Shown here: positions 14,981 through 18,094 of the stretch, piece by piece | Layout: each line of letters opens with the position of its first letter | Position numbering within the stretch: position 1 is the first letter of the stretch | Source: an uncultured Verrucomicrobiota bacterium | GTDB taxonomy: Bacteria; Verrucomicrobiota; Verrucomicrobiia; Limisphaerales; UBA9464 | Reading direction: 5' to 3' | Assembly: GCA_903858835.1 (NCBI GenBank) | Contig: CAIOKD010000176.1 | Location: 1-35,089 of the forward strand | DNA: 35,089 nucleotides | Position numbers and translations under genes: made by a program | Notes under the pieces: model-generated | What the model was told of the DNA's origin: nothing | Database searches by the model: none | Seen by the model: only the letters and a program-made list of their open reading frames with translations

Positions 14981-15739
14981 ATGCGACGTTGGATTGCCAC
15001 CCTGTCCCTGATGACCGTCTGGCTGGGCCTGTCCGGAATCCGGACCTCGGCCGCGGACAGCGCTCCCGCCACGCCTCCCGCACCGGCGAAGGAGCGGGCC
15101 TCCTCTTCAAACCCCTCGACACTGCGCCCCAAGAAACCCGCCATGACTCCGAACTCCCCGACCCAGTCCTCGGCCCCGTCCACGATCCCCGCTGGCGGAT
15201 CCGACCCGGCCTCGTCGACCAACGCCCCGACCGGCCATGCCGGCACCCCGGCCCTCGAGACCGTGTACCTGGCCGGCGGTTGCTTCTGGGGCATGGAGGA
15301 CATCCTGCGCAAGATCCCCGGAGTCCGGGAAACCCAGGCGGGCTACACCGGCGGATGGCTGCCCAACCCGAAGTACGACGACACGCACGACAGCAAGTCG
15401 GGTCACGCCGAATCAGTGAAGGTGGTGTTCGATCCCAAGACCCTGTCGTTCGAGGAACTGCTTGAGAAGTGGTTCTTCCGCATGCACGACCCCACCACGC
15501 TCAACCGCCAAGGCAACGACGTGGGCAGCCAATACCGGTCAGCCATCTTCGTCTTCAATGAGACCCAGAAGAAGACCGCCGAGACCGTGAGGGCCCGGGT
15601 CAATGCCTCCGGCAAGTGGAGGCGCCCCGTGGTCACCGAGATCACCACGGCCTCGATCTGGTATCCGGCCGAGGCCTACCATCAGAAATACTTGGTCAAG
15701 AACCCGGGCGGTTACACCTGCCACTTCCTGCGGGATTGA
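14981..15739 (+). CDS. msrA: Peptide-methionine (S)-S-oxide reductase MsrA with signal peptide and long Pro/Ser/Thr linker
   Basis: VYLAGGCFWGMEDILRKIPGVRETQAGYTGG (GCFWG), HAESVKVVFDPKTLSFEELLEKWFFRMHDPTTLNRQGNDVGSQYRSAIF. Confidence 0.95.
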   Translation: MRRWIATLSLMTVWLGLSGIRTSAADSAPATPPAPAKERASSSNPSTLRPKKPAMTPNSPTQSSAPSTIPAGGSDPASSTNAPTGHAGTPALETVYLAGGCFWGMEDILRKIPGVRETQAGYTGGWLPNPKYDDTHDSKSGHAESVKVVFDPKTLSFEELLEKWFFRMHDPTTLNRQGNDVGSQYRSAIFVFNETQKKTAETVRARVNASGKWRRPVVTEITTASIWYPAEAYHQKYLVKNPGGYTCHFLRD

Positions 15740-15764: not shown

Positions 15765-16970
15765 TCATGGCCAGGGACTCGAGTGCTCGATGCCGGACCG
15801 CTTTTCCTCCATGAGCCGCTGGACGATGGCCGCCAGGGCCCGCACCGCAGCCCCGGCCCGACCGCCGGGAGGTTGCTGGTCCTCGGGATGCCCCCCGAGG
15901 GCGGCCGCCACTGCGGATGCGGTTCCGGGACGTCGCTTGAGCCGATGGGCCGCCACGATCCTGAGATCGATCGACGTCTGCTCCGGATGCCAGTCTTCCT
16001 GAGCCCATAGCCGGGCCGCGAAATCACCCCAACCTGCCAACCGGTCCCCGGACCGGAGGAAGGACGTCCAGGCCAACCTCGCCTCGGCGACGGATCGACC
16101 CGTCAGCAGGGTTTCCCGGGGAACTCCCAGGTGTTGGTGCGCTCTCGGAGCCAAGGGCCGCCTCGGTGCCAAGAACGCCTCGAAGGTCTCCCCCGTCGCC
16201 GGCCGCATCGCCACCCAGTGGAGCAATTCCGGGGATCCGGGCACCGGGCTGTCGCGTCGGTGAGCGTTGGCCTCCCCGGCGACCACGACCAGATGCGGCC
16301 AAAGTCCGAGCAGGTCGGGCATCGCTGAGCTCTCCCACCAGGGATCGGCACCCTTCAACCGTCGGCGGGGCGGCCCCGTTCGGGCGGCGGTCGCGGCGAT
16401 CTGACGGTCGACCATCGCCTCGAAGGCCCGGAGCAGCGGGGCGAAACGATCTTCGCCACCTTCCCAGGCGGCGAGCACCTCGACCACCGCTTCCACTGTG
16501 GCCACGCAGTGGAGATCCGGTTCGCGGCGGATGCGGTAATTGCCCGGCTTCCGGGGCATGAACCCGATCCGCGGCAGCTTCGCCAACGCCGGGTTGAGCG
16601 CCATCATCTTGCGTGCCTGAGGCCACGTCCCGTCGATGATGAGCAGCGTCTCGGGCGGGCGGTCCAGGGCGTCCGGCGCCACCGCCCCGTCGCCCGGAAA
16701 GAGCAAGGCCGTACCGGGACGGGCGAGCAGCGCCTCGATGCGGGGGTGGCCTGCGAATTCGATCCCCTCGTGGAGTTCGCTGCGGGAAAGCCCCAGATGG
16801 GCGATGCGGGCCGTCCCAATGGCCACCCGGGATTCGCGCGGGTGCTGCAGGAGCACCACCCGGGTCGCCGTCTCGACCGGCGTGAGATTGGCACACCAGC
16901 AGGCCGAGGCCGGACGACGGCATCGGGGGCAGTTGGGACGGGCCGTGGGGGCTTCGAAGGGGACGGGCAT
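15765..16970 (-). CDS. DTW domain-containing protein (tRNA-uridine aminocarboxypropyltransferase family) with C-terminal extension
   Basis: RPNCPRCRRPASACWCANL zinc-finger-like N-term; LLQHPRESRVAIGTARI; LLIIDGTWPQARKM (DxTW); IRREPD. ~190-aa C-terminal extension not part of the DTW domain. ATG at 16970 chosen; ORF is open to 17201. Confidence 0.88.
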   Translation of the reverse strand: MPVPFEAPTARPNCPRCRRPASACWCANLTPVETATRVVLLQHPRESRVAIGTARIAHLGLSRSELHEGIEFAGHPRIEALLARPGTALLFPGDGAVAPDALDRPPETLLIIDGTWPQARKMMALNPALAKLPRIGFMPRKPGNYRIRREPDLHCVATVEAVVEVLAAWEGGEDRFAPLLRAFEAMVDRQIAATAARTGPPRRRLKGADPWWESSAMPDLLGLWPHLVVVAGEANAHRRDSPVPGSPELLHWVAMRPATGETFEAFLAPRRPLAPRAHQHLGVPRETLLTGRSVAEARLAWTSFLRSGDRLAGWGDFAARLWAQEDWHPEQTSIDLRIVAAHRLKRRPGTASAVAAALGGHPEDQQPPGGRAGAAVRALAAIVQRLMEEKRSGIEHSSPWP

Positions 16971-17215
16971 GGGAGCCCGGTGGACCCGCGGCCACCGGAG
17001 AGCGAAAGGAACCATGCGGCGGGGCATCCGAGCAAGTAGTGGGTCGAAATCCGTCCACCGGCTTCCCGAGTGCATCCAACCACCGCCAGAGGCTGCATCC
17101 CCCAGGTGGATGGACCCCGCCCGATCGACCCAGCGGAGGATCCGAGGGTCCCGTTTTGATCCAGGGATCCCGGATTCCGTTCGCCACCGACCGCCACTCA
17201 CCCCATATTGCGAAG

Positions 17216-18094
17216 ATGATTCCCCGAATGGTGCTGCTGATCATGGTGACGACGCTGTCGATGTTCTCCGCGGATGCCCACCGCCTCCGTGTCCTGCTCA
17301 TCGACGGCCAGAACAACCATGATTGGCGCTCGTCCACGCCGCACCTCAAGGCGGTCCTCGAGGCCTCCGGGCGTTTCACGGTCGAGGTGCTGACCCTGCC
17401 CGGCAAGGGCGGCGCCATGGCCACCGTCAAGCCACGGCTCGACGGCGTGGCGGTGGTGCTCTCCAACTACAACGGAGAACTCTGGCCCGAGACCCTGCGC
17501 ACCACGTTTGTCGACTTTGTCCGCAAGGGCGGCGGATTCGTCTCGGTCCACGCCGCCAACAACGCCTTCGCCCAGTGGCCCGAATACAACGAGATGATCG
17601 GCGTGGGCGGCTGGGAGGGTCGCAACGAGAAGTCCGGACCGTGGCTTTATTGGGAAGGGAAGATCGTGCGGGACACCTCGCCGGGCCCGGGCGGCAGCCA
17701 TGGCAGCCAGCACGCATTCACGATGACCACCCGGGAACCGGATCATCCCATCATGAAGGGCCTGCCGACGGAGTGGATGCACGCCAAGGATGAACTCTAT
17801 GATCGCCTGCGAGGACCGGCCAAGAACCTGACGGTCCTGGCCACGGCATGGTCGGATCCGAAGACGCGGGGGACCGGTAAGCACGAACCGCTCCTCTTCA
17901 CCATCGCCTTCGGCCAAGGTCGGGTCTTCCACACGGCCCTCGGCCACAACAACGGCCCGGATCTCACGTCGCAACAGTGCGTGGGGTTCATCACCACCCT
18001 CCTGCGCGGCACCGAATGGGCGGCCACGGGCCGAGTCACCCTGCCCATTCCCGACGATTTCCCCACGGCCACCGAGGTGCGAAGCAGGAAATAG
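17216..18094 (+). CDS. ThuA domain-containing protein, secreted
   Basis: RVLLIDGQNNHDWRSSTPHLKAVLEASGRFTVEV; GGGFVSVHAANNAFAQWPEYNEMIGVGGW; FHTALGHNNG. Confidence 0.92.
   Translation: MIPRMVLLIMVTTLSMFSADAHRLRVLLIDGQNNHDWRSSTPHLKAVLEASGRFTVEVLTLPGKGGAMATVKPRLDGVAVVLSNYNGELWPETLRTTFVDFVRKGGGFVSVHAANNAFAQWPEYNEMIGVGGWEGRNEKSGPWLYWEGKIVRDTSPGPGGSHGSQHAFTMTTREPDHPIMKGLPTEWMHAKDELYDRLRGPAKNLTVLATAWSDPKTRGTGKHEPLLFTIAFGQGRVFHTALGHNNGPDLTSQQCVGFITTLLRGTEWAATGRVTLPIPDDFPTATEVRSRK

Follow-up and report, generated by a model that had tools for sequence, protein, structure and literature searches.

In the DTW superfamily the Asp is the putative catalytic base and the Trp shapes SAM binding, and mutation of the Escherichia coli enzyme YfiP/TapT proved the importance of the zinc motif, the Asp and the Trp (PMC7026641). 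The product of TapT in E. coli is acp3U47, and those of human DTWD1 and DTWD2 are acp3U20 and acp3U20a (PMC6895100); in a Pseudomonas tapT mutant some signals remain, which another DTW enzyme might make (PMC10962704). Fusions of a DTW domain with an inactive 3'-5' exonuclease domain are reported from planctomycetes and delta-proteobacteria in the passage that Burroughs & Aravind 2014 (PMC4275035) devote to them, where RNA binding is proposed for this architecture. Loss of nuclease residues from the DnaQ fold is also described for most Maelstrom domains, in which the DEDHD residues are gone; a switch of the active site to EHHCHC was proposed for Maelstrom (PMC2628886).

Here a locus of this kind from Verrucomicrobiota is analysed. 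In the window, which is the whole 35,089-nucleotide stretch of DNA under study, one protein joins a DTW domain to an apparently inactive 3'-5' exonuclease domain, the combination that characterises the fusion class of 2014.

Gene structure and DTW domain

The fusion gene occupies positions 15765..16970 on the minus strand of the window, as given by its translation and by homologs that share its start and architecture over the full length, and its product has 401 residues, the conserved start being the ATG at 16970 and the stop codon lying at 15765-15767. A longer, GTG-started ORF reaching 17201 was discarded: close homologs have a stop before the GTG and their frame is open for about 402 codons only, so a start at 17201 is unsupported. 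The interval 15765-16343, on which the original prediction had centred, is the C-terminal half of this minus-strand gene. About 210 residues follow the DTW domain, some 180 of which make up a second domain. NCBIfam gave no useful match.

The DTW (TapT-type aminocarboxypropyltransferase) domain (residues 11-190; 16401..16940, minus strand) was recognised by PF03942 (E 1.6e-44, 152.5 bits, cut-off 33.7), by a profile match to E. coli TapT (9kyt, E 2.5e-12) and by Foldseek, where the TapT-SAM complex 9kyt was the top PDB match of the full-length model (E 5.3e-7, target TM 0.73), indicating a SPOUT-type fold with a TapT-like SAM pocket in the modelled structure. The four-Cys zinc motif C-x2-C-x6-C-x-C (C14, C17, C24 and C26; 16893..16931, minus strand), spaced like the CXXCXXXXXXCXC of E. 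coli YfiP/TapT (PMC7026641), and the DGTW catalytic motif (D113, T115 and W116; 16623..16634, minus strand) were intact in 30/30 fused homologs. Judged from sequence and model, the DTW half appears to hold all that TapT requires, namely the zinc motif, the D-x-T-W motif and the fold.

Predicted exonuclease fold of the C-terminal domain

The second domain (residues 218-396; 15783..16319, minus strand), studied by AlphaFold2 (AF2), Foldseek, hmmsearch and dN/dS, is a predicted pseudo-exonuclease of the DnaQ/RNase T fold. The C-terminus alone matched RNase_T at E 0.056, below the family's curated cut-off, and since this match of the lone tail was weak the exonuclease reading needed better evidence. 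A C-terminal profile of close relatives only hit the PolC exonuclease domain 2p1j at E 1e-4; with divergent members added, hmmsearch gave E 2.3e-6 for the same domain, in a match collinear across positions 37-183 of the profile; Pol III epsilon came next (E 0.007). Comparison of the dead domain with active exonucleases in hhalign produced an alignment with a probability of 87%, which was only partial because the active set consisted of four sequences.

The AF2 model of the isolated domain had a pLDDT of 92.2 and a pTM of 0.89, and its Foldseek matches in the PDB included ERI2 (4e-7), RNase T, Pol III epsilon, 3'hExo, ERI1, ERI3 and TREX2, with E values from 4e-7 to 3e-6 and TM of about 0.6-0.7 for ERI2, RNase T and epsilon. 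The best 50 PDB matches listed were all DEDDh exonucleases, polymerases bearing such a domain, or the ESRP1 RNase H-like domain. In the full-length model the first half matched the E. coli TapT-SAM complex and the second half ERI2, the matches being assigned to the halves by their length and kind; the overall pTM of this model was 0.50, and the placement of one domain relative to the other is therefore unreliable. Both the AF2 model and its PDB matches correspond to an RNase H-like DnaQ fold, and on model and profile the C-terminus is predicted to have the fold of a DEDDh exonuclease. The original prediction, a DTW domain followed by a degenerate DEDDh (DnaQ-like) domain, to be checked by modelling with Foldseek and by profile similarity, was thus borne out by PF03942, by the RNase H-like fold of the AF2 model and by the significant PolC match.

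Loss of the catalytic residues

Conservation was counted over 30 fused homologs, three of them from a distant class of the phylum. In motif I (A231-G-E233-A-N235-A-H237, ancestral D-x-E; 16260..16280, minus strand) the Asp was lost in 30/30, position 231 being A in 24, V in 3 and Q in 3, and E233 and N235 were invariant. Motif II (G313-W-G-D-F317-A318, ancestral HN-x-x-FD; 16017..16034, minus strand) was placed by the HMMER alignment with the NFD of PolC; its Asp position 318 was occupied by A, G, S, P, F, C or Y, and by D in 0/30, next to W314 and G315, which were invariant in all 30. The counterpart of the structural 'iDt' motif, D335-L-R337 (15960..15968, minus strand), opens the next helix and was matched to 'IDTLAL' of PolC in the alignment; both D335 and R337 were kept in 30/30.

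The last helix opens with a GRAG motif, invariant in 30/30 (15846..15863, minus strand), in place of the catalytic H-x-A-x-x-D. The catalytic His position 370 was G throughout, the last catalytic Asp position 375 was A, T, S, V, R or N and never D (A375 in the window protein), and no conserved His or Asp was found between columns 353 and 381 of the 30 fused homologs. By sequence the placement of this motif is less certain, HMMER aligning GRAG with DDAR instead of HRAL; the last helix of the model begins at residue 370 according to DSSP, which favours an alignment with HRAL, and under both placements the His and the Asp are missing.

Only the Glu of the DEDDh set D, E, D, H, D is therefore kept, the other four residues being absent from 30/30, and the degenerate state was common to every fused member examined, including those of the distant class. 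The catalytic positions had been read in advance as A, A, G and A with the motif-I Glu retained, which agrees residue by residue with A231, A318, G370, A375 and E233, and the same sites proved degenerate in all 30 DTW homologs with the extension. Because the His and Asp ligands are absent, metal-dependent DEDDh chemistry would not be expected from the mechanism of the family.

Conservation and selection

Among five genomes of the genus, dN/dS was 0.12-0.22 for the C-terminal domain versus 0.03-0.11 for the DTW domain, by simple Nei-Gojobori counts that are rough in the pairs with dS >1. Such purifying selection argues for a conserved pseudo-enzyme and not for decay. Eighteen C-terminal positions were invariant in 30/30 fused homologs (E233, N235, P247, R256, P269, A274, G291, W301, F304, W314, G315, D335, R337, G349, G370, R371, A372 and G373), and many of them fall within what were once motifs I, II and V. 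By analogy with the family fold these motifs would line one pocket, and the old active-site pocket seems to have been rebuilt and maintained rather than abandoned.

Distribution and origin of the fusion

Numerous genomes of the window's family encoded two-domain homologs with 60-82% identity. Outside that family the fusion was detected in a second family of the order (three genomes, all of one genus) and in a distant class of the phylum (three genomes, with 33-36% identity in the C-terminal domain). The public records of fusion homologs were Verrucomicrobia metagenome assemblies, some of them labelled Akkermansia. In the survey of the order, 24/293 genomes matched the C-terminal profile, one of them weakly through an ordinary exonuclease, and in a phylum sample of 388 genomes only one besides the window's own did so. 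The fusions sit mainly in one Verrucomicrobiota family. Their distribution is patchy, and the fusion must be dispensable, since many close genomes are without it. No fused relatives were found in plasmid, phage and viral collections, the plasmid matches spanning the DTW part only.

In the tree of DTW domains the 30 fused proteins formed one side of a branch (support 91/63), and the support of the fused group was 96/96 when the distant-class members were left out; stand-alone DTW relatives fell outside it. This topology is compatible with a single origin of the fusions, without showing it strongly.

Many genomes of the same family also carry a second, stand-alone DTW paralog that forms a deep, separate group (L084-L093, family f1), and the window's own genome (G000) has a second DTW match on another contig (C252:9843-10088). 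A different DTW fusion was noted in a genome from a distant class of the phylum, where a 421-residue ORF (L074:280-1542, minus strand) has a class I methyltransferase domain at its N-terminus (Methyltransf_23, E 8e-27) and a DTW domain at its C-terminus (E 2e-42).

Among the active exonucleases of the order, the top matches to the C-terminal profile were two proteins that combine a zinc ribbon with an intact DEDDh exonuclease, L067:1159-1953 (minus strand) and L068:1273-2025 (plus strand). Their lineage is a possible source of the dead domain, as a lead rather than proof. RNase_T (PF00929) was matched in 2/13 genomes comprising the window's genome and its close relatives, several of them 90-95% complete, and in 11/14 control genomes; the former genomes may hold few canonical DnaQ-type exonucleases.

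Gene neighbourhood

The fusion gene is flanked on the plus strand by genes for a peptide methionine sulfoxide reductase (14981-15739; PMSR, E 6e-60) and a ThuA-domain protein (17039-18094, with an unsure upstream ORF limit; E 3e-28). At the other loci examined, MsrA adjoined the fusion in two and ThuA in three, all from close relatives, and no conserved neighbour gene or operon was found around the fusion. No tRNA genes lay near it in the window or in the relatives, except for one tRNA-Gly near the distant member L072.

Proposed function and alternatives

The reading that we favour, with moderate confidence, is a SAM-dependent acp3U transferase acting on tRNA, which its pseudo-exonuclease domain would help to bind or select. 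Sequence and model suggest an RNA aminocarboxypropyltransferase of the DTW/TapT family that uses SAM and probably makes acp3U in tRNA. The attached DEDDh domain would be past cutting with its fold kept, and at the old active site E233, N235, W314, G315, R371 and the GRAG turn would form a rebuilt pocket. This domain would most likely grip the substrate RNA, for example the 3' end or an arm of a tRNA, and set the target uridine into the DTW site, which may result in a preference for a tRNA or position unlike that of the stand-alone DTW paralog of the same genomes. Where a genome encodes two DTW proteins, they may plausibly share the work between them by tRNA or position. Among the fold relatives found by Foldseek are nucleases whose targets are the 3' ends of structured RNA or DNA (RNase T, 3'hExo and ERI2), and a domain whose family grips the 3' ends of RNA or DNA could be a natural aid for substrate choice. 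Acp transfer, tRNA as the substrate and RNA binding by the dead domain are all inferred here, as is the original prediction of a nucleic-acid-binding module for substrate recognition.

Several observations stand against this reading. RNA binding is invisible from composition: the C-terminal domain is near neutral, with a net charge of -4 to +2 and a pI of about 5.6-10.3, mostly 6.5-7.6, so a broadly basic binding surface is not evident. Apart from the one tRNA-Gly, no tRNA or partner gene is adjacent, and the fusion is patchy. In a narrower and rather improbable version of transferase with tRNA-binding domain, the dead pocket would read the tRNA 3' end, either CCA or an unprocessed trailer, coupling acp3U to 3' maturation, with E-x-N, WG and GRAG holding the terminal nucleotides uncut.

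The same near-neutral charge would suit a module for protein-protein interaction or dimerisation that makes no RNA contact, an explanation to which we give a minor but real chance. Several invariants are hydrophobic or aromatic (W301, F304 and W314), and exonuclease-fold domains can act as interaction partners, Pol III epsilon being itself a subunit. However, the strictest conservation lies largely at the former nucleic-acid pocket (E233, N235, W314-G315 and GRAG), and a partner is not suggested by any conserved neighbour gene. The pocket could instead hold a mononucleotide without metals, the domain then sensing a small nucleotide or RNA end product and regulating the transferase; the invariance of Glu, Asn and Arg in the former catalytic site agrees with this, and NMP-holding DEDDh folds are among the matches (rAMP-bound 3'hExo 1w0h and TMP-bound DnaQ domain 8h2f), but such a sensor is conjectural and seems unlikely.

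It is very improbable that the domain is a live nuclease with a new catalytic set, after a switch like that proposed for Maelstrom. E233 and D335 are invariant acidic residues, and a His is present at H342 in 25/30 and at H237 in 27/30; nevertheless, only one of the five DEDDh ligands is left, none of the 30 homologs retains the His or the other Asp residues, and H237 is W in 3 homologs and H342 is Q in 5. A neutral remnant of a chance fusion, which the faster evolution of the C-terminus (median identity 56% versus 75% for the DTW domain) might suggest, is refuted by the low dN/dS (0.12-0.22), the 18 invariant positions and a frame open in every intact homolog from genus to class. For the favoured RNA-binding role, the idea of a dead nuclease turned RNA gripper becomes directly testable by one truncation.

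Comparison with known systems

The Maelstrom domain (PMC2628886) and the RNase H-like domain of ESRP1 (PDB 7wrn) are likewise DnaQ folds in RNA-associated proteins, but these are eukaryotic and of unrelated architectures, and the replacement residues of Maelstrom differ. With the DEDDh exonucleases (RNase T, Pol III epsilon, PolC and 3'hExo/ERI1-ERI3) the fusion domain shares the fold, the order of motifs, the motif-I Glu and the 'iDt' Asp, whereas it has lost four of the five catalytic ligands in 30/30 and its last motif is rebuilt as GRAG. The zinc-ribbon exonucleases L067 and L068 have a PRRPI/PRRPL stretch and a motif order similar to those of the dead domain, yet their catalytic DEDDh is intact and they are without a DTW domain. 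E. coli TapT/YfiP shares the zinc motif C-x2-C-x6-C-x-C, the D-x-T-W motif and the fold (PMC7026641, PMC6895100; PDB 9kyt), but is without the exonuclease domain; the fused proteins, in contrast, share many genomes with a stand-alone DTW paralog.

The closest likeness is to the DTWD2-family fusions of Burroughs & Aravind 2014 (PMC4275035), which, by their description in that account, have the same two domains, the inactivation and the proposed RNA-binding role, in phyla other than that of the verrucomicrobial fusion. The RNA-binding idea is therefore not new, since that account proposed it for the same architecture. The present analysis adds a new taxonomic group, a structure model, a description at residue level, selection data and a tree that fits one origin. 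A fusion previously reported only in brief thus gains residue-level and structural support, together with a verrucomicrobial clade that is well sampled. It offers a clear case of an exonuclease fold apparently retained by selection after catalysis was lost and joined to a putative RNA-modifying enzyme.
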